A stretch of DNA of 64,000 nt from the NCBI GenBank assembly GCA_025153755.1, contig JAOALD010000001.1, positions 992,001 to 1,056,000 of the forward strand, in the 5' to 3' direction. Positions 41,220-50,357 of the stretch are shown here, piece after piece; within the stretch, counting starts at the first letter, position 1; the number at the start of each line of letters is the position of its first letter. Source of the stretch: SAR92 clade bacterium H921 (GTDB lineage Bacteria > Pseudomonadota > Gammaproteobacteria > Pseudomonadales > Porticoccaceae). A program made the translations under genes and the position numbers. Below the pieces are notes generated by a model. The model did no database searches and was not told where the DNA came from. It saw only the letters and a list, made by a program, of their open reading frames with translations.

Positions 41220-42899
41220 ATGAGCGAAAATTTCGCAGATCTATTTGAAGAAAGTCTCAAAAGTGTTGAGATGAATCCTGGTGCCATCATTACTGGCGTA
41301 ATTATCGATATCGATAAAGACTGGGTAACCGTACATGCCGGATTGAAGTCAGAAGGCGTCATATCCGCAGACCAATTTTATAACGAGAAAGGTGAGATCG
41401 AAGTTGCCATCGGCGACGAAGTTCAGGTAGCTCTAGAAGCCGTAGAAGATGGTTTCGGCGCCACCAAGCTTTCCCGTGAAAAAGCCCGCCGCGCAGAATC
41501 CTGGATCGAACTTGAAGCAGCCCATGTTGCTGACGAAGTCGTTATCGGTGTTATCAGCGGTAAGGTTAAAGGTGGATTCACTGTTGATGTGCGCGGTTTG
41601 CGCGCGTTCCTGCCAGGCTCACTGGTAGATGTTCGCCCACTGCGTGAAATTACTCACCTAGAAAATATTGAGCTGGAATTTAAAGTTATCAAACTTGATC
41701 CCAAGCGCAACAACGTTGTTGTCAGCCGCCGTGCCGTAATGGAGAGTGCTAACTCTGTAGAGCGAGACGAGTTGCTAGCCAACCTTGAAGAGGGCGCTTC
41801 ACTGAAAGGTGTTGTCAAGAACCTTACCGATTACGGTGCGTTCGTTGACCTGGGGGGCATTGATGGTCTGCTACATATCACGGACATGTCTTGGAAGCGT
41901 ATCAAGCATCCATCAGAGATGATCAATGTTGGCGACGAAATTGACGTTAAAGTACTCAAGTTTGATCGCGAGCGTAATCGCGTATCACTGGGTATGAAGC
42001 AGATGGGCGAAGATCCTTGGGGCGACATCAAAGGCCGTTACCCAGAGGGAGCACGTTGTAAAGCTAAGATCACTAACCTTACGGACTACGGTTGTTTTGC
42101 CGAGTTGGAAGATGGCGTTGAAGGTCTGGTGCACGTCTCTGAAATGGATTGGACCAACAAAAACGTTCACCCATCCAAGATCGTCGATCTCGGCCAAGAA
42201 GTTGAAGTTATGGTACTGGATATTGACGAAGAGCGTCGCCGTATCTCACTGGGTATCAAGCAGTGCTTCACCAACCCATGGGATGACTTTGCTACGACCA
42301 TGACTAAAGGCGACAAGATCTCAGGCAAAATTAAATCTATCACTGACTTCGGTATCTTTATTGGTCTGGACGGTGGTATCGATGGTCTGGTGCACCTTTC
42401 AGATATCTCTTGGAACGAAACTGGCGAAGAAGCGGTTCGCAACTTTAAGAAAGGCGAAGAAGTTGAGACTGTGGTACTTAGCATTGATGCAGAACGTGAG
42501 CGTATTTCACTGGGCATCAAACAGCTTTCAGACGATCCATTTAACAACTACGTAGCCGAGAATGATAAGGGCGCAATTGTTAAAGGTACAGTTAAAGAAG
42601 TAGACGCTAAGGGTGCGGTTATCGACCTAGGTAACGACATTGAAGCTATCCTTAAGGGCTCAGAGCTTTCTCGTGAGAAAGTAGAAGATGCCCGAAATGA
42701 GCTACAAGTTGGCGCAGAAGTTGAAGCAAAGATTATTAATGTGGACCGAAAGAACCGTGTTATTAATCTGTCGATCAAAGCCAAAGATGTTTCTGAAGAA
42801 AAGGATGCGGTTAAAGCACATCGCAGCTCTGAAGCAGAATCAGCAGCAGCTACACCTACTACCATTGGTGATTTGATCAAGGCGCAAATGGACAAGTAA
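41220..42899 (+). CDS. rpsA: 30S ribosomal protein S1
   Basis: Binds mRNA on the small subunit. The 559-residue protein contains six S1 RNA-binding domains; repeats such as [49 protein letters not shown] and [25 protein letters not shown] are obvious. Starts [13 protein letters not shown], the typical S1 N terminus that docks on S2. Strong terminator follows at 42931. Confidence 0.97.
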
Positions 42900-42930
42900 A
42901 GTCTGGCTTCTTGCTACAAAAAAAGAAAAA

Positions 42931-42955
42931 GGGTGGCTATGCCACCCTTTTTTTT
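42931..42955 (+). terminator. Rho-independent terminator of rpsA
   Basis: GGGTGGC (42931-42937), loop TAT, GCCACCC (42941-42947), then eight T residues. An A-run precedes the stem so it could work in both directions. A near copy occurs at 49949, on the far side of the accessory region. Confidence 0.9.
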
Positions 42956-43565
42956 GCCCTGAAATTGATGATTTTGCATTGCCGGCCAGTACCAGCTTAG
43001 GCTAAAGAATGTAGAACTTGCCGTGTAACTAACAGGGAAGTATGTACCTTACTTCTAGCTTGGAAAAAATTTACGTAATCGCGTCAACCAGAGTATCTAA
43101 ATTACCCAGGCCAGATAAATAATCCCGCCGCCTCGTGTTAACTATTTGTTTTACTATCCCTGCCCAACGACCCATACAAGTCTCACAGACTGCAGCTATC
43201 TGTCGCCAAATGTTTAGCGCATATCGATAGCACAGACTCAGATACAGAATATAAAAGGCTCTTTCAGCACACCTTGATAAAATATAGTCTACACTTTGGC
43301 ATAGATTATCCTATCTCGTTTCCTTAAAGGTCTCCAATGGACTAGTTGAGACTTCAGCGCTGATAGGTTACGGCAAAGGAGATGCCCGTATGTTAAGTGG
43401 TTTGATAGGCCTTTATTTGGCACGGAAAAACTGGTGTTGCACTGGCACAGAGTCCTCAGTCGATGCTTTTAAAAACCCCGTTTCTGGGTTACAACGTCCG
43501 TTAATCAAACCTCCTGTCGAGTATTTAAGATACCTGTCCTTTGCTAGAGCAAGGCCAGTAAATAG
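42956..43565. other. Gene-poor stretch at the left of the accessory region
   Basis: About 600 bases after the rpsA terminator with no gene I can support. A 64-codon open frame at 43390-43584 has no recognisable domain and an odd composition; I treat it as chance. The segment may be decayed sequence from the insertion between rpsA and ihfB. Confidence 0.5.
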
Positions 43566-43826
43566 GTGCCTCTGTCAACCATAATTAGTTTTGAGGCAGA
43601 TCAGCCCGTGGTAGCAAGCTACACAATTACTGCGGGTGATCGTACATGGCAAGCTCATACGCGTTCCAGTGCAGCAACTGATCAGGCGTCGTTATTCAAA
43701 CCCAATCATCAGGAAGTATTGCTCAGATTTCTTCCAGATACCGAACATCGGATTATTGTTCAAATCACTAATGCGCAGGGGCAGGAGATCAATGGGGTCA
43801 GGATCAATGGGGTCAGAGTCATTTGA
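43566..43826 (+). pseudogene. Fragment of a secreted beta-sandwich protein, ended by the repeat
   Basis: An 86-codon frame from a GTG. Residues about 5-70 (ISFEADQPVVASYTITAGD, LPDTEHRIIVQITNAQGQE) look like one fibronectin/Ig-type strand-rich domain, somewhat like the N-terminal domain of arylsulfotransferases. The final residues EINGVRINGVRVI are translated from two copies of the CAATGGGGTCA repeat, so the natural C terminus has been lost. A TAG stop lies just upstream in frame, and no leader is present. Likely a remnant. Confidence 0.4.
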
Positions 43827-43875
43827 TTCATTTTCTGAGAGAAGAAAAATCAAATGACTCTGACCCCATTGATCC
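43801..43875. repeat. Complete palindromic repeat pair (BIME-like)
   Basis: A 28-bp arm at 43801-43828 is perfectly complementary to 43848-43875, with a 19-base spacer. This is the most intact form of the repeat family in the window and could fold into a long hairpin as single-stranded DNA, the substrate form used by RAYT-type enzymes. A shorter forward copy, GATCAATGGGGTCA, precedes it at 43787-43800. Confidence 0.9.
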
Positions 43876-43890
43876 CGTAAGAAATTCAGA

Positions 43891-44097
43891 ATGTTTGGCC
43901 GAAACTATGGTCGAGAAATACATCTATTCTCAGGTAATGCAGGCTACACGTCCGAGACTACAGTGCATGAGTTAGGGCATTTCTTAGGGTTAGCTCATCA
44001 AGCAAATTCGACGAACAGCTTTATGAGCTATTCTAGAACAAGAAATGCTGTTCCTGTCTCATCTGATTTCAACAGATTAGTAGAAGGATACAGATAG
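43891..44097 (+). pseudogene. Metzincin-type zinc protease, C-terminal fragment
   Basis: A 68-codon frame with a full metzincin zinc site HELGHFLGLAH (His26, His30, His36, Glu27) and a Met-turn SFMSYS (Met45). A functional metzincin domain is at least 130 residues, so the N-terminal half is missing: upstream the frame closes at a TGA inside the repeat that ends at 43875. It could be a remnant of a secreted protease broken by repeat insertion. The next gene starts immediately after its stop codon. Confidence 0.6.
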
Positions 44098-44826
44098 ATG
44101 AAAACGAGTAGAGCAGTATTAACTTTTCTTTTGTTGAGTAGTGCTATGTGTTTAGGTAAAGATGATGCGATTACTTCTAGCTGTCAGTTTTATTATGAAC
44201 CTGACCAGTTAAAGGAATTTGCTGAAGCCAAAAATCTTTTAGCTAAGATAGGTTCACCAAATGCAATTAAGATTTGTGAGGCTAATGAAGATAAAGTTTT
44301 TTATGTGGCTTCAGAAATAAAAGAAGAGCAAGGAGTGTCATTCTTTAATCTTGATCGCGTTTTTCCTGTTAGTTTAGAAAGTGAAATAAGGTGGGATTAT
44401 TTACCTCCAGCAGACAAATTGCATCTATCTGAAAGCTCAATTTATATGTTGCTGTCGGGTTCAAAAGATCTGGTTCATTCGGATGATAGGTTTGTACAAG
44501 TTAAGGATATGTCGATAGGTGTTTTTAAGCTGTTGATGATAAATTGGCATTCCTATGTTTCTTCTGAAGGTGAGTTGGATAATTTTTTTAGCGGATTATC
44601 ATTTTTTGAAAAACGCAGTGGTAGTGTGGCGAGCTTTAAAAAAGCATTAAGTGGCAAGGATAAGCCATCGATTATCACTGCAGGTATGAAAGTAGGAAAG
44701 AATAAATATCCGCATTACACTTTTTCTGCTGCAAATGAAAATAGTATGTGGATATTTGACGTTGATATAACAGAAAAGAAAGAGTTAAAGTTAATAGGTC
44801 TTCAGGTAGTTGGCGAGGATCAATGA
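44098..44826 (+). CDS. Secreted protein of unknown function
   Basis: A 242-residue protein with a clear signal peptide (KTSRAVLTFLLLSSAMCLG) and an otherwise hydrophilic, AT-rich-encoded body. I recognise no domain. It starts right after the stop of the metzincin fragment without a gap, so the two genes once formed an operon; the protein might be a partner or inhibitor of the protease, but that is a guess. Ends at GATCAATGA, and the first repeat of the next cluster begins two bases later. Confidence 0.55.
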   Translation: MKTSRAVLTFLLLSSAMCLGKDDAITSSCQFYYEPDQLKEFAEAKNLLAKIGSPNAIKICEANEDKVFYVASEIKEEQGVSFFNLDRVFPVSLESEIRWDYLPPADKLHLSESSIYMLLSGSKDLVHSDDRFVQVKDMSIGVFKLLMINWHSYVSSEGELDNFFSGLSFFEKRSGSVASFKKALSGKDKPSIITAGMKVGKNKYPHYTFSAANENSMWIFDVDITEKKELKLIGLQVVGEDQ

Positions 44827-44827
44827 A

Positions 44828-44893
44828 GGATCAATGGGGTCAGAGTCGATTGATTTTTAAGGATCAATGGGGTCAGAGTCGATTGATTTTTAA
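44828..44893 (+). repeat. Two tandem 33-bp forward repeats
   Basis: 44828-44860 and 44861-44893 are identical 33-bp units, each containing CAATGGGGTCAGAGTC followed by GATTGATTTTTAA. They abut with no spacer, immediately after the secreted-protein gene. Confidence 0.95.
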
Positions 44894-44950
44894 AAGGATC
44901 ACGGATCGTAGTGCCTATAAATAGAGGCGGAGATAGAAAATCAGCGGCAT

Positions 44951-45050
44951 TTTATGAGATAAGAAAAATCAAATGACTCTGACCCTATTGATTACTATTG
45001 ATTTTTTTTTATGAGAGAAGAAAAATCAAATGACTCTGACCCTATTGATT
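44951..45050 (-). repeat. Two reverse-orientation repeats
   Basis: 44951-44993 and 45008-45050 both read TTTATGAGA(T/G)AAGAAAAATC and then AAATGACTCTGACCCTATTGATT. They face the forward pair at 44828-44893, so the cluster forms an imperfect large palindrome with a spacer of about 57 bases that contains no gene. Confidence 0.9.
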
Positions 45051-45184
45051 TTATTTTAAAGGCAACCATTCGAATTTATCGAGACGAGCATACTTTTGAT
45101 GAGCAAGAGATTGAAATATTGCTGGAACCGGATTTTAAAAAATCAAGACGTAGTGATACATTCGATTCCATTATGAGCGTATGA
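45011..45184 (+). CDS. 57-residue frame starting inside a repeat
   Basis: ATG at 45011 lies in the repeat head; residues 1-13 (MREEKSNDSDPID) are translated repeat, the rest is FILKATIRIYRDEHTFDEQE then an acidic-basic stretch ending DSIMSV. The C-terminal part reads like real coding sequence, so this is probably the tail of an older gene whose front was replaced by the repeat. No ribosome binding site is evident. Expression is uncertain. Confidence 0.35.
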   Translation: MREEKSNDSDPIDFILKATIRIYRDEHTFDEQEIEILLEPDFKKSRRSDTFDSIMSV

Positions 45185-45272
45185 GTAGCAGCTCAGGCAG
45201 GCAAAGCGTATAGCTTTTTCATGCAGGGCGAGTCTAGAGTAAAAACTTGTTTATAAATAAGGACGAGTATTG

Positions 45273-46199
45273 ATGAAAACAGCAGACCCCACATCTGGTC
45301 AGAAATCCGCATTCAGCCGATTATTAAATGAATGTAAGGAGGAGTTTTCTGATTTCATGCAAGATCTTAACAATAAAAAAAATGATATTGAAAATGCTAG
45401 AAAAACTATTCTTGTTGACGATGATGACACATCTTTGCAAACTCAAATTAATAAAGCTTGCGATAGTGCTGACGAGAATTGCGAAGAAATTTCGAGATTA
45501 CTAACGGATATCAAACAGAAACATACATGTATAACAGAAGCTGAATCTGGTTACTTTCCTAAAATTGAGTCGACATACAATCAAACTGAAGAACTAATGA
45601 GCAAGTTTCAAACTTCATCTCAACTGATTTACGGAGATGAAAACAACGGAATTCAGAATGAATTGGAGCAAATGCTATCAAAGTCTGAAGAATTGCTCAG
45701 GCAAGTTGAAAATACCTTCGCCGGTGCAACAAATACCGAATTAGCCAAAGCATTTCACGATCAAAAGAAATCGTATCGCAAAGCAAAGTGGTTTTGGAGT
45801 GGCGCATTTATATGCAGCGTTGCAGGCATGGCTTATTTAGGATTCCTCGCTATGGGTATTAAATCAACCGATAATTACTTTTATGATCTGGGCAAGCATT
45901 TAGTGCCTTTAGGGCCACTAATCTGGTTCGGTCTTTTTGCTAGCAGGCAACAATCACAAGACAAAAGATTGCAAGAAGAATACGCTCATAAAGAAGCTGT
46001 AACCAAGACTTATGTAGGACACCAACGTCAACTCGGAAACTTAGATGATAATAACAACTTGTTAGCTGAGTTAGCGGATGCAACTATTAAAACCATTACA
46101 TCTAACCCCAGTTCAACACTTGGAAAGATTAACCCCAAACAAGATTTACCCTCATCCGCAGTAGCTGATAAAATAAAGGACTCAGTGACCCAAAAATAG
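45273..46199 (+). CDS. Coiled-coil protein with two membrane segments, unknown function
   Basis: A 308-residue protein. Residues about 10-150 are hydrophilic and heptad-like (coiled coil); two hydrophobic segments follow at about 173-195 and 206-224, then a charged coiled stretch and a Ser/Pro-rich tail. I recognise no catalytic motif. The ATG at 45273 has AAGGA nine bases upstream; a TTG one codon earlier is ignored. It is the only full-size, apparently intact gene of the island besides the transposase and metY. Membrane-plus-coiled-coil layouts occur among phage-defence effectors, but nothing here proves that. Confidence 0.6.
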   Translation: MKTADPTSGQKSAFSRLLNECKEEFSDFMQDLNNKKNDIENARKTILVDDDDTSLQTQINKACDSADENCEEISRLLTDIKQKHTCITEAESGYFPKIESTYNQTEELMSKFQTSSQLIYGDENNGIQNELEQMLSKSEELLRQVENTFAGATNTELAKAFHDQKKSYRKAKWFWSGAFICSVAGMAYLGFLAMGIKSTDNYFYDLGKHLVPLGPLIWFGLFASRQQSQDKRLQEEYAHKEAVTKTYVGHQRQLGNLDDNNNLLAELADATIKTITSNPSSTLGKINPKQDLPSSAVADKIKDSVTQK

Positions 46200-46241
46200 A
46201 TTCTTGGACAGCCACAAATTAGGGTGAGATAAAGCATCTGC

Positions 46242-46388
46242 CTACTCAGCAGTCAGCACCAAACAGCCGTGCATAATCCTGACCTTGACTGGCGAATCAA
46301 TCGTAAATCCGGCCTGAATTAGCCAGTGGCCTTTTAAGTGAATCTCCCCAATGGCTGTGCGTTGCTTGTAGTCCTGGCTTAGCTGGCA
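46242..46388 (-). pseudogene. SymE-like toxin remnant
   Basis: On the minus strand the frame reads QLSQDYKQRTAIGEIHLKGH followed by WLIQAGFTIDSPVKVRIMHG and CLVLTAE-stop. This aligns with the C-terminal AbrB-like domain of SymE (E. coli: ITLKGQWLEAAGF ... VKVMEGCIVLTA). The frame stays open upstream but enters the CAATGGGG repeat (translated as DSDPIAC) with no ATG, so the normal N terminus has been lost. SymE proteins are SOS-induced toxins controlled by antisense RNA. The domain itself looks intact. Too short for standard gene callers. Confidence 0.7.
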
Positions 46389-46390
46389 AG

Positions 46391-46511
46391 CAATGGGGTC
46401 AGAGTCCAAGCAATGGGGTCAGAGCCGATTGATTCCTTTTCTAAGAGAACAAAAATCAAATGACTTTGACCCTATTGATCCTATTGATCCTATTGATCAA
46501 CCCTATTGATC
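46391..46511. repeat. Degenerate palindromic repeat with 9-bp iterations
   Basis: Two forward cores (46391-46406 and 46411-46434, the second with AGAGCC) face one reverse core (46453-46480, with CTTTGACCC). The end carries CTATTGATC repeated at 46472, 46481, 46490 and again at 46503, a slippage-like run of the repeat terminus. Confidence 0.85.
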
Positions 46512-46529
46512 ACTATCAAGGAGGAATAT

Positions 46530-46652
46530 ATGAAATTGTATCGTAATTTTTTTGTCTTGATTGTTGCTATGATTTTGACCAGTTGTGCGTCAGTTAATCA
46601 ATGGGGTCAGAGTCGATTGATTTTTAATAAAAGAAAAGGGATTTTTTTTTAG
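46530..46652 (+). pseudogene. Lipoprotein leader fused to repeat sequence
   Basis: ATG at 46530 with an excellent AGGAGG seven bases upstream. The frame encodes KLYRNFFVLIVAMILTSCAS, a lipoprotein signal with lipobox LTSC, then three native residues and NQWGQSRLIFN from the repeat, ending after 40 codons. The mature protein has been cut off by the repeat at 46597. If expressed it would give a tiny lipopeptide. Confidence 0.6.
46597..46627 (+). repeat. Forward repeat, single copy
   Basis: ATCAATGGGGTCAGAGTC followed by GATTGATTTTTAA, the same form as the tandem pair at 44828. It lies 52 bases upstream of the RAYT start, in the position expected for a repeat in the leader of its own transposase gene. 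Confidence 0.95.
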
Positions 46653-46678
46653 TTCTTTAAAAAACAGGGATAAGTTAA

Positions 46679-47392
46679 ATGCCACGTCACGGTCGCTTTG
46701 TAGTTGTTGGTCATCCACAACATATCATCTCTCGAGGAAACAATCGCCAGGCTATCTTTTGTTGCAACAAGGACTACAGTTTTTATCTTGAGAAACTGAA
46801 AGCTGGTTGCGAAAAGTATGGTGTAGAGCTGCATAGTTATGTATTGATGACTAATCATGTTCATTTGATGATGACACCGTTAAATGAGGATAGCATCAGT
46901 AAATTGATGCAAATGCAGGGACGTTATTATGTTCAGTATTTTAATTATACCTACAAGCGTACGGGCACATTATTTGAGGGTCGCTATAAGGCAACCTTAA
47001 TAGATACAGAGCGCTATTTTCTGACTTGCATGAGATATATAGAACTCAATCCTGTTAGAGCAAGTATGGTTAAAGGTCCGACCGATTATCCGTGGAGTAG
47101 CTATCACTTCAATGCGGCAGGTGATCGAAATGACCTTTTAACACCTCATAGAGCATATTTATCATTGGGTCCTACGAAGGAAGAGAGATTATCTGTATAC
47201 AGAGATTTGTTTCGTGAGCATCTTTGTGAAAGGGAAGTAGCGGAAATAAGGGAGTCTACAAACAAGGGTTGGGTTCTTGGGAGTGAGCGTTTTAAGGATA
47301 TGATTGAAGAGCAGCTATCTAGAAAATTGGCACCATTAGATAGGGGTGGCGATAGGAGATCTAAAGCCTTTGTTGAGAATAGAATCAAGTGA
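46679..47392 (+). CDS. REP-associated tyrosine transposase (RAYT, Y1 family)
   Basis: A 237-residue IS200/IS605-like single-strand nuclease. The HUH motif is NHVHL with His60 and His62; GRYYVQYFNYTY (81-92) supplies the candidate catalytic tyrosines, and GTLFEGRYK (96-104) and RYIELNPVRA (119-128) are RAYT signatures. RAYTs cleave and join single-stranded DNA at the palindromic repeats that flank them. The C terminus (GGDRRSKAFVENRIK) ends with a stop codon inside the reverse repeat core. The same 3' end is repeated three more times downstream. ATG at 46679; GGGA lies eight bases before. Confidence 0.93.
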   Translation: MPRHGRFVVVGHPQHIISRGNNRQAIFCCNKDYSFYLEKLKAGCEKYGVELHSYVLMTNHVHLMMTPLNEDSISKLMQMQGRYYVQYFNYTYKRTGTLFEGRYKATLIDTERYFLTCMRYIELNPVRASMVKGPTDYPWSSYHFNAAGDRNDLLTPHRAYLSLGPTKEERLSVYRDLFREHLCEREVAEIRESTNKGWVLGSERFKDMIEEQLSRKLAPLDRGGDRRSKAFVENRIK

Positions 47393-47734
47393 CTCTGACC
47401 CTATTGATCCCCCATTAGATAGGGGTGGCGATAGGAGATCTAAAGCCTTTGTTGAGAATAGAATCAAGTGACTCTGACCCTATTGATCCACCATTAGATA
47501 GGGGTGGCGATAGGAGATCTAAAGCCTTTGTTGAGAATAGAATCAAGTGACTCTGACCCTATTGATCCCCCATTAGATAGGGGTGGCGATAGGAGATCTA
47601 AAGCCTTTGTTGAGAATAGAATCAAGTGACTCTGACCCTATTGATCCTTTGTTGAGAATAGAATCAAGTGACTCTGACCCTATTGATCCTATTGATCCTA
47701 TTGATCGAATCAAGTGACTCTGACCCTATTGATC
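47333..47734 (+). repeat. 79-bp tandem array made from the RAYT 3' end plus its repeat
   Basis: Units start with CCATTAGATAGGGGTGGCGA at 47333, 47412, 47491 and 47570; the first three are 79 bp, the fourth 78. Each carries the last 57 bases of RAYT coding sequence and the reverse core GACTCTGACCCTATTGATC. Then come a 42-bp partial unit (47648-47689), three CTATTGATC iterations (47680-47706), and a 28-bp partial unit (47707-47734). Units are nearly identical, so the amplification is recent. Only the first unit is in the transposase frame. Confidence 0.95.
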
Positions 47735-47759
47735 ATTAAAAATTGTGGAGTATAAATTT

Positions 47760-48248
47760 ATGAAACCAAGACTTATATGCTTGATGCCCATATTTAATTT
47801 AGCTCTTCTTAGCGGCTACATACAAGCAGAGCGGGGGCATATTTGTGAGGAAGAGAAAGGGTATGTGGAACGAAAATCTTTGATAACGTCTAATTTGGAT
47901 TGTAGCAACAATGATCTAGATGGGCTATGTAGCGTAATTATTAGCTCCCCTAAAAAAGTTGAAAATAGACAATTTATGGTTTTTACTTTTTTAAGGAATG
48001 TTGATGGTAAGGTCGAAACATATTTGAATATGCAGTCGCGATTTTATGACGACTTGGTTCGGACTGGCTTTGAGTTTGCAGAATCCAGCGCTGGTTCTGT
48101 TACCGTATATGCCGTTTACGAAAATATTAATGGATGTACATTGAAGTCATTCGTTAATTTAGGAGACTTGTTGTCAGAACAACGTGATCAAAAGATCAAT
48201 GGGGTCAGAGTCACTGCTGTCCCACTTAACGGAGAAAAAAAGGCTTAA
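47760..48248 (+). CDS. Secreted protein of unknown function with a repeat-encoded tail
   Basis: A 162-residue protein with a signal peptide (KPRLICLMPIFNLALLSGYIQA), four to five cysteines in the mature part (ICEE, LDCSNN, LCSV, GCTL), and no domain I recognise. GGAG sits nine bases before the ATG at 47760; an in-frame GTG at 47745 is less likely. Near the C terminus, INGVRV is translated from a forward repeat at 48194, after which a dozen more residues follow. The original C terminus has probably been changed by the repeat. Confidence 0.5.
   Translation: MKPRLICLMPIFNLALLSGYIQAERGHICEEEKGYVERKSLITSNLDCSNNDLDGLCSVIISSPKKVENRQFMVFTFLRNVDGKVETYLNMQSRFYDDLVRTGFEFAESSAGSVTVYAVYENINGCTLKSFVNLGDLLSEQRDQKINGVRVTAVPLNGEKKA
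48194..48213 (+). repeat. Forward repeat core inside coding sequence
   Basis: GATCAATGGGGTCAGAGTCA lies in frame near the 3' end of the secreted-protein gene, where it is read as INGVRV. The GATTGATT tail of other copies is missing. Confidence 0.9.
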
Positions 48249-48280
48249 ATCTCAACAAGTTGCTACAATGAATGTGCGAC

Positions 48281-48439
48281 GGATCAATGGCGGATCAATG
48301 GGGTCACGGATCAATGGGGTCAGAGTCGATTGATTTTTAATGCCAGACCTTCGACCATTTGAGGCGACCCTTCGGATCAATGGGGTCAGAGTCGATTGAT
48401 TTTTAATGCCAGACCTTCGACCATTTGAGGCGACCCTTC
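48281..48439 (+). repeat. Stepwise-truncated repeats and a 66-bp tandem duplication
   Basis: GGATCAATGG (48281), GGATCAATGGGGTCAC (48292) and then two identical 66-bp units (48308-48373, 48374-48439). Each unit is a full forward repeat plus 33 bases of unrelated sequence ending GGCGACCCTTC. As in the RAYT array, flanking sequence has been copied along with the repeat. Confidence 0.9.
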
Positions 48440-48538
48440 CAGTGCTTTGATACCAGCAGTGATCAGCCGAATAACTGGGTGCGGAGTACCCAAACCCAGT
48501 ACAGCGCCTATGGCTACGCAATAGGGAACGTAGCACAA
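48386..48538 (-). pseudogene. Possible coding fragment ending in the repeat
   Basis: A 50-codon minus-strand frame includes GAVLGLGTPHPVIRLITAGI and KALEGSPQMVEGLALKINRL, which reads like a natural protein segment, before a stop codon inside the repeat. No proper start: the frame opens from a TTG just after a TAA. I do not recognise the family. A chance frame is possible; the rest of 48440-48636 holds only the metY leader. Confidence 0.25.
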
Positions 48539-48636
48539 TTAATCCCCCTATCGTTTGTAAATTACGTTGATTAAGTGAAATTTTGATTCCTATCAGGCAA
48601 AATACTCAGCCAAAGTACAACTTCCATGGAAAAAAA

Positions 48637-49908
48637 ATGAAACTCGAATCTCTAGCACTCCATCATGGCTACGAATCTGAAGCCACCACAAAAGCTGCCG
48701 CTGTCCCTATCTACCAGACAACATCTTATACCTTTGATGATACGCAACATGGTGCGGATCTCTTTGATCTTAAAGTGCCGGGTAATATTTACACGCGCAT
48801 TATGAATCCAACAACTGATGTGCTGGAGCAGCGTTTAGCGGAAATGGAAGGCGGTATTGGTGGTCTCTGCTTAGCTTCAGGTATGGCGGCTATTACCTAT
48901 GCCATTCAATGTATAACAGATGTCGGCTCAAATATTGTCAGCACCTCGCAACTCTATGGTGGCACTTATAATCTATTTGCCCACACGCTTCCACGGCAGG
49001 GCGTTGAAGTGCGTATGGCGTCTCATGACGACTTTGCAGGCCTGGAGGCGTTAATTGATGAGAATACCAAAGCGGTTTTCTGTGAATCCATAGGCAATCC
49101 AGCAGGCAATATAGTCGACCTTGAAGTTCTTGCCGATATAGCGCATCGCCATGGTGTCCCACTGATGGTCGATAGCACCGTTGCTAGCCCTTATCTGTGC
49201 CGACCCATTGATCTGGGTGCCGATATTGTTATCCATTCGCTGACTAAATATATTGGCGGCCATGGCACCACTGTCGGTGGCATTATTATTGATTCCGGCA
49301 AGTTCGACTGGGCGGCGAATAAAGAACGCTTCCCGATGTTGAATACACCAGACCCGTCTTATCATGGTGTGGTTTACACTGAGGCGCTTGGCCCCGCCGC
49401 ATATATTGGTCGTTGCCGAGTTGTGCCTCTGAGGAATACCGGTGCTGCGCTAGCACCTCACAGTGCCTTTTTGATTCTGCAAGGGTTGGAGACTCTTGGT
49501 TTACGTATGGATCGACATTGCGATAATGCGTTGGCTGTAGCTCAGTTTTTACAAGCGCATCCCAAGGTTGAATGGGTCAATTATGCGGGTTTGGAGGATA
49601 GTCCTTACAAGGCAACCTGCGATAAGATCACCGGCGGTAAGGCGTCAGGGATTTTGAGCTTTGGTATTAGCGGCGGCAAGGACGCGGGGGGACGATTTAT
49701 TGATGGGCTACAAATGATATTGCGTTTGGTTAATATCGGTGATGCTAAATCATTGGCCTGTCACCCAGCCTCAACAACTCACCGACAGTTAAATTCGGAA
49801 GAGCTGGCAAAGGCTGGAGTATCTGAAGATCTAGTGCGTATCTCTGTTGGCATTGAACATGTAGATGACATTGTTGCGGATATTAGCCAGGCTCTTGATA
49901 AGGTTTGA
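48637..49908 (+). CDS. metY: O-acetylhomoserine aminocarboxypropyltransferase (sulfhydrylase)
   Basis: PLP enzyme making homocysteine from O-acetylhomoserine and sulfide (methionine synthesis). The 423-residue protein has the Cys/Met-metabolism fold: YTRIMNPTTDVLEQRLAEME, SGMAAI, NPAGNI, SLTKYIGGHG with the PLP lysine, GLETLGLRMDRH and the SLACHPASTTH segment. The ATG at 48637 follows GGAA; a start 18 codons earlier adds only non-family residues. Its codon use looks like the core genes rather than the island, so it may predate the repeats. Methionine gamma-lyase is an alternative, but length and termini favour MetY. Confidence 0.88.
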   Translation: MKLESLALHHGYESEATTKAAAVPIYQTTSYTFDDTQHGADLFDLKVPGNIYTRIMNPTTDVLEQRLAEMEGGIGGLCLASGMAAITYAIQCITDVGSNIVSTSQLYGGTYNLFAHTLPRQGVEVRMASHDDFAGLEALIDENTKAVFCESIGNPAGNIVDLEVLADIAHRHGVPLMVDSTVASPYLCRPIDLGADIVIHSLTKYIGGHGTTVGGIIIDSGKFDWAANKERFPMLNTPDPSYHGVVYTEALGPAAYIGRCRVVPLRNTGAALAPHSAFLILQGLETLGLRMDRHCDNALAVAQFLQAHPKVEWVNYAGLEDSPYKATCDKITGGKASGILSFGISGGKDAGGRFIDGLQMILRLVNIGDAKSLACHPASTTHRQLNSEELAKAGVSEDLVRISVGIEHVDDIVADISQALDKV

Positions 49909-49948
49909 CTGTTGGTACCAAAAACTTAGATGTTAAGATGGCAAATAA

Positions 49949-49972
49949 GGGTGGCTGTGCCACCTTTTTTTT
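49949..49972 (+). terminator. Rho-independent terminator after metY, near copy of the rpsA terminator
   Basis: GGTGGC (49950-49955), loop TGT, GCCACC (49959-49964), eight T residues. The sequence AGGGTGGCTrTGCCACC plus T-run plus GCC is the same as at rpsA except for one loop base and one C. Confidence 0.88.
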
Positions 49973-50072
49973 GCCTAGAATTTAATAATAGGGCATTTAA
50001 TGCTTGTATAAATTTAAAAGTTCAATAAAATCAACAAGTAACGAAATCTAATCTCAGAACCGAAGCCCAAGA

Positions 50073-50357
50073 ATGACCAAGTCAGAACTCATCGAAAAAA
50101 TCTCTGCCAACCAGGATCAACTTCCGCCCAAGGATGTAGAGCTTGCGGTGCGTATGATACTTGAGCGCATGACATCGGCATTGGTGGGCAACCAGCGCAT
50201 TGAGATACGTGGGTTTGGCAGCTTCTCTTTGCACTACCGGGCTCCGCGTGTAGGACGCAATCCAAAAACTGGCGACGCCGTGAATCTCTCCGGTAAGTAC
50301 GTACCTTATTTTAAACCGGGTAAAGAACTGCGCACGCGCGTAAATGATAGCCTTTAA
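50073..50357 (+). CDS. ihfB: Integration host factor subunit beta
   Basis: DNA-bending heterodimer subunit. The 94-residue protein starts [11 protein letters not shown] and has [14 protein letters not shown] and the minor-groove-intercalating arm [16 protein letters not shown], with the IHF-beta ending [15 protein letters not shown]. In most gammaproteobacteria it directly follows rpsA; here about 7 kb of accessory DNA separates them. Confidence 0.97.

Follow-up and report, generated by a model that had tools for sequence, protein, structure and literature searches.

A tandem array behind a TIRYT-type transposase gene as a possible footprint of the enzyme on its own terminal repeat

The tandem array that follows a transposase gene in the window (the whole stretch of 64,000 nucleotides analysed here) represents a pattern that recurs within a known family of elements; the raw event is known, and a description of the rule given here for its edges was not found in the literature searched. 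The terminal repeat gains partial copies on its outer side, and most of them end near the 3' foot of a weak stem-loop. We give a probability of roughly 55% to the reading that the transposase left this array as a footprint when it acted on its own terminal repeat.

By its sequence the enzyme is a TIRYT-type Y1 transposase. Pfam Y1_Tnp matches it with E 5.8e-12, its profile matches PDB 4er8 (TnpArep) with E 1.8e-4, and in an alignment of 18 sequences the residues H60, H62, Y120 and N124 are invariant; RYIELNP presents the Y---NP signature of Y1/HUH transposases. According to the sections considered of Di Nocera et al. 2013 (PMC3733652), TIRYT genes have terminal inverted repeats, many with GGGGWSAS. 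At the window gene the upstream repeat carries GGGGTCAG at 46603-46610, which fits this consensus, and the downstream repeat carries AGGGTCAG, which is one letter off. The first-pass annotation had named the gene a RAYT. This holds at the superfamily level (Y1 domain), but the flanking repeat is a GGGGTCAG-type TIR and no GTAG REP. Assignment to a REPtron (RAYT/REP) was rejected because the flanking repeats (AATCAANNGACTCTGACCCNATTGATN) contain no GTAG, dispersal is absent and the score for NCBIfam REP_Tyr_transpos is 67.5 bits, under the cut-off of 80. The genome (2.57 Mb in 13 contigs, 98% complete) holds a single Y1_Tnp match, the window gene itself, and not the several near-identical transposase copies per genome that mark IS200/IS605. 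The gene, its left repeat and the array are composed as follows:

46679..47392, + strand: TIRYT/RAYT-type Y1 transposase gene, 237 aa, NHVH and YIELNP motifs (Pfam Y1_Tnp, NCBIfam REP_Tyr_transpos, 18-row alignment)
46596..46622, - strand: left terminal repeat AATCAATGGGGTCAGAGTCGATTGATT (homology with the sister genome G361 starts at 46598)
47333..47734, + strand: tandem array after the transposase gene (TRF and cutting after each ATTGATC)
47333..47409, + strand: array unit 1, with the last 57 coding nt, the stop codon and the right terminal repeat (47383-47409)
47410..47488, + strand: array unit 2, 79 nt
47489..47567, + strand: array unit 3, 79 nt
47568..47646, + strand: array unit 4, 79 nt
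47647..47688, + strand: partial array unit, 42 nt
47689..47706, + strand: two 9-nt partial array units, CTATTGATC
47707..47734, + strand: partial array unit, 28 nt, adjoining the unique flank

TRF reported a unit of 79 bp with 4.0 copies and 99% matches at 47333-47647, and a second period of 42 bp at 47604-47734. The 79-bp unit consists of 57 coding nt, the stop codon and the end repeat, and thus takes in the final 60 nt of the 237-aa ORF 46679-47392. When the array is split after each ATTGATC, the lengths are 77, 79, 79, 79, 42, 9, 9 and 28, followed by the flank ATTAAAAA, with the number of units as assembled in the 13-contig genome; the first piece of 77 nt, counted from 47333, is the gene's own tail plus the repeat. 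Every unit, full or partial, terminates at ATTGATC. Since the stop codon is kept in the first unit, the 237-aa frame is intact. The units differ by marker bases, with either CCCCC or CCACC at the joints. Positions 47331-47488 and 47489-47646 are identical over 158 bp, and therefore the latest doubling was that of a dimer, so that the 79-bp unit was doubled first and the dimer afterwards. Much of what the first-pass annotation had described was confirmed: four 79-bp units that combine the last 57 coding nt with the repeat, inclusion of the gene tail in the copied unit, copying in place (the units follow head to tail directly after the gene) and anchoring of the copying at the repeat. Its partial units of 42 and 28 nt are present as well; the two units of 9 nt were missing from its list.

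The array lies within a local swarm of related repeats:

43787..43873, no strand assigned: inverted terminal-repeat pair, the left one with a 15-bp edge duplication
44826..44893, - strand: terminal repeat duplicated as a 33-bp unit
44918..45050, + strand: diverged transposase tail plus terminal repeat (75% to the 79-bp unit), followed by another repeat
46387..46515, no strand assigned: inverted terminal-repeat pair with 20-bp and 9-bp edge duplications
48194..48439, - strand: terminal repeats bearing edge duplications of 11, 16 and 66 bp

Allowing up to 3 mismatches, the repeat core matched the window 17 times compared to a mean of 0.10 in 100 shuffles. All nine exact tandem duplications with a period of at least 9 in the 64-kb window are located within 43500-48600, in the swarm. 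The excess over the shuffles and this concentration show that the array is real and not due to chance. The nine duplications have units that measure 9-158 bp; one strand carries four of them and the opposite strand five. For each there is a placement that puts the outer edge 14-18 nt beyond the C of CTGACC, so that all fit the edge rule. With up to 1 mismatch, all 19 places of the core in the whole genome fall within 4.6 kb (window 43805-48393, C1:1035805-1040393). This single cluster speaks against a dispersed REP family, and in this the repeat differs from the picture in the first-pass annotation. Places with two mismatches are located outside 43805-48393 in 13 of 14 cases, where a reversed control pattern gives 5 in total. 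In the same-genus genome G361 all ten repeat places are found at C36:16621-19166 and C16:32-123, both of them contig ends. An exact search with one repeat version in seven other genomes gave 10 copies on three contigs in G230 and 0 to 3 copies in the rest; the three contigs of G230 mean that the locality of the repeat is not general.

The swarm and variable small genes together occupy about 7 kb (42900-50072) between two genes that we take, from their translations, to be rpsA-like (41220-42899) and ihfB-like (50073-50357). rpsA and ihfB are neighbours in Gammaproteobacteria. Within this region, 45270-46199 encodes a 309-aa protein with a weak match to DUF6161 (E 0.00085, under the cut-off).

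We surveyed loci of related transposase genes, comprising the best 80 of 585 from a profile search of named genomes and 30 from 274 genomes of the class, the latter being the loci of the best matches only. Removal of loci sharing an exact 100-mer of the gene reduced these 110 to 107, and a further set of the same branch from 20 to 19. In the 107 loci the density of exact tandem duplications (period at least 9) is 2.97 per kb at 0-100 bp from the gene ends, 1.15 per kb at 100-200 bp and 0.08-0.30 per kb farther out, compared to 0.04 per kb inside the gene; 52 of the 107 carry a duplication within 200 bp of a gene end. From the 92 near-end duplications we removed 10 in which a TGWCC core was missing within 45 nt and 2 with an ambiguity of more than 4 nt, leaving 80, of which 52 were unambiguous. 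Together with 3 from the 19 further loci this yields 55 events of zero ambiguity in 36 loci in all; they are identical whether counted with 109 and 20 loci or with 107 and 19.

The outer edge is located 15-18 nt beyond the C of CTGACC in 41 of the 55 unambiguous events, independent of how long the unit is (22/27 on the right side, 19/28 on the left), and in 49 it lies at 15-21. The outer offset has a slope of -0.05 (s.e. 0.10) on unit length and the inner offset one of -1.05, the two slopes being interdependent as they differ by the unit length. The same polarity is observed at both gene ends, on opposite strands, which indicates that it is set by the repeat and not by the direction of the fork. 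Several observations count against the footprint reading. The range 15-18 misses fourteen of the 55 events and the range 15-21 six, and near-end duplications were found in just 5 of the 19 further loci of the same branch. The E. coli enzyme cuts at C|T, whereas here the last base of the outer edge is variable (T 17, G 15, A 15, C 8). The picture is also less clear on single locus sides: of the 11 that carry more than one unit length, 5 have an outer edge less variable than the inner one and the other 6 do not (L044, L064, L077, L086, L114, L190); we count these six against an action of the enzyme, and in four of them the difference is 1-2 nt with the inner edge on a hot spot. A distant Y1 branch, chosen as negative control, failed as such: 11 of its 20 loci carry near-end duplications (17 events). 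Of these, 8 were measurable from a TGWCC core, with an outer offset of 15-18 in 1 of 5 unambiguous cases. Seven Paraburkholderia homologues from few lineages, in whose flanks no TCTGACCC repeat was seen, had 0 tandem duplications with a period of at least 9.

The inner edge is variable, and the base before it is a C in 33 of the 49 events with an outer edge at 15-21 (expected 12.8), or in 31 of 43 within a tighter zone (expected 16.8). C|T is found there 13 times compared to 5.7 expected (P 0.0024). Hot spots are +1 (C|TGACC, 15/49) and +6 (13/49); as duplications were sought only at a period of at least 9 nt, inner edges beyond about +9 cannot appear. For the six long units the C preference is not significant (2/6, P 0.20), which we count against the enzyme. 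The joints show no excess of microhomology: slack of 0/1/2/3 nt was found in 52/15/9/4 of the 80 duplications, where our own calculation gives 45/22/8/3 by chance.

To describe the stem-loop we used 174 repeats found on 258 sides. The arms on either side of the core pair better when both come from one locus than when they are combined across loci, with a mean longest stem of 4.95 compared to 3.86 (s.d. 0.08; the largest of 200 across-locus shuffles reached 4.09). Stems of at least 5 bp number 92, against a mean of 41.5 across loci, and a loop of 13 nt is the commonest. Relative to the 3' foot, the outer edge falls between -2 and +7 nt, and 24 of 30 events place it at 0 to +4 nt. Six examples folded as DNA have energies of 0 to -6.2 kcal/mol; for four of them at least 11 of 200 shuffles fold at least equally well, and two clearly beat the shuffles. 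For the window's right-hand repeat the fold is not superior to that of shuffles, another point counted against the enzyme.

From the geometry, which is read directly in the sequences, we infer the following cutting and joining. The HUH/Y1 enzyme would nick single-stranded DNA at the outer foot, leaving a 3'-OH on the repeat side and a 5'-phosphotyrosine outside. The 3'-OH would then be joined to a second cut after a C, in the repeat or in the gene tail, on the sister strand or a neighbouring copy. One such unequal strand transfer would add a unit spanning the inner to the outer cut, with a deletion as the reciprocal product. In the window the inner cut would lie 57 coding nt inside the gene, so that the tail would be carried along and the gene's own frame left intact, and the later doublings (79 to 158) could have occurred by the same step or by homologous recombination. 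As no homology is needed, one edge is favoured and the other tends to follow a C, the Y1 enzyme would be the simplest agent. In the sections considered of PMC8266576, the related TnpAREP is described as cutting in vitro at C|T on either the 5' or the 3' side of the REP, with Tyr-5'P and a 3'-OH as products, and as transferring strands. A mapped cut site for an enzyme of the window gene's branch was not found in the portion of the open-access literature covered. More tentatively, and with odds somewhat below even, the arrays may record how TIRYT-type enzymes multiply their repeats, namely by homology-free, one-ended strand transfer in which a favoured outer cut is joined to inner cuts of varying position after a C; such transfer would build ladders of partial repeats carrying gene or flank and might give rise to MITE- or REPIN-like pieces with a transposase tail.

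The transposase may also nick at the repeat while DNA synthesis makes the unit, either by inward re-annealing and extension of the 3'-OH or by rolling-circle copying. Priming by the 3'-OH and rolling-circle growth of BIMEs were proposed by Nunvar et al. (PMC2817692), both priming and strand transfer are considered possible in PMC8266576, and nicking followed by synthesis explains the favoured outer edge as well. We nevertheless regard it as unlikely: re-annealing should leave microhomology at the joints, where the slack is about that of chance, rolling circles should yield equal units with both ends fixed, where the observed lengths are unequal, often below one repeat length and down to 9 nt, and the C preference suggests cutting at the inner edge.

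Somewhat less probable still is plain replication slippage, in which a stem-loop of the nascent strand would free a 3' end at the foot of the stem and copying would restart inward, independent of the transposase. Hairpins promote slippage, and the position of the outer edge relative to the 3' foot fits. A palindromic stem, however, should act on both strands and also give arrays at the inner foot, while the anchoring is one-sided at both gene ends. The stems are furthermore weak, as the six folded examples show, and the lack of excess microhomology likewise argues against slippage. The first-pass interpretation thus stands in part: the tail within the unit, the copying in place and the anchoring at the repeat are retained; the slippage or rolling copying it suggested is not favoured.

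Unequal homologous recombination or slippage between existing copies predicts the doubling of the 158-bp dimer for later steps, but can create neither the first partial units with new starts nor the one-edge bias across loci, and is very improbable as the explanation. An assembly artefact is conceivable for a repetitive array in a genome of 13 contigs, but hardly credible given the distinguishing bases CCCCC/CCACC at the joints and like arrays in plasmids recorded as complete.

Compared with known systems, the locus resembles the TIRYT/TIRtron elements of PMC3733652 in having a RAYT-like Y1 gene between TIRs with GGGGWSAS instead of GTAG REPs, and those repeats may dimerise or cluster; the sections considered describe neither partial copies with a favoured outer and a variable inner edge nor gene-tail arrays. 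Subclass 2.1 of TnpAY1 (Quentin et al. 2018, PMC6006769) shares the NHVH, YIELNP and SS motifs and a median length of 238 aa, and is said to correspond probably to TIRYT. That work found no REP-like sequences near its genes, whereas the flanking repeats of the loci surveyed here have arms with better pairing inside a locus than between loci. The RAYT/REP and BIME systems (Nunvar et al. 2010, PMC2817692) are alike in that new repeats arise beside the gene and enzyme-driven growth was proposed. Their repeats are GTAG-type, abundant, dispersed and alternating, while those of the window are GGGGTCAG-type, head to tail and, in this genome, local. As excerpted from that paper, 3' termini of rayt genes are captured between REPs in four RAYT-adjacent BIMEs; gene-tail capture is therefore a known kind of event. 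Clusters of REPINs and REPs in P. fluorescens SBW25 (Bertels and Rainey 2011, PMC3116915) are likewise tandem, with flanking sequence, beside RAYT genes, but their units are whole REPINs or evenly spaced REPs, and the sections considered describe no one-edge rule. A description of the edge rule was not found in the part of the open-access literature covered.

If the edge rule holds, it would provide a map of cut sites that is readable from genomes, would predict the cleavage sites of this branch and would thereby make the question testable in vitro. Polarity, the lack of excess microhomology and the base preference together separate enzyme action from ordinary slippage. The edge pattern may also show how such terminal repeats spread; for REP-type repeats this is stated to be unresolved in PMC8266576, as far as the part considered goes.

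An identical array of the same size in relatives had been named beforehand as evidence against the first-pass interpretation; in the one same-genus genome compared (G361) the array is different. The transposase genes are identical in 700 of 714 nt (98%), whereas the G361 array has units of 29, 42 and 11 nt and that of the window 79 (three times), 42, 9, 9 and 28; in both, all units end at ATTGATC. The DNA diverges just outside both repeats, and the same Cys/Met PLP gene is found downstream of both copies. Both genomes share the inner starts TTTGTTG, GAATCAAG and TATTGATC, which may reflect either preferred inner cuts or common ancestry. Between the two transposase genes (46679-47392 and L153) 10 codon differences change the amino acid and 4 are silent, suggesting little sign of purifying selection. 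In L153 a reading frame beginning MRNIKQ, on the reverse strand upstream of the transposase (~224-500), enters the left repeat, which would fit an insertion of the element into this frame.

Copies of the gene tail were detected by blastn in 13 of 146 usable loci (149 minus 3 repeats of others). The gene end is repeated within about 280 bp downstream only in the window (L028), L052, L087 (88 bp), L108 (204 bp) and L125 (150 bp); the remaining copies are distant or internal pieces, two of them of 17-18 nt. In Skermanella mucosa and S. rosea the transposase gene lies between a MazEF-like pair and a sulfotransferase, on plasmids recorded as complete, and the extra units on its left side are 28 and 17 nt in the former and 15 nt in the latter. 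An older, diverged unit on the left side in S. mucosa (L203) seems to hold the 5' head of the transposase gene plus the left repeat, and thus seems to be the mirror image of tail capture. Finally, at L047, L093 and L113 fold-back copies of the terminal repeat (inverted and closely spaced) are located beside the gene.
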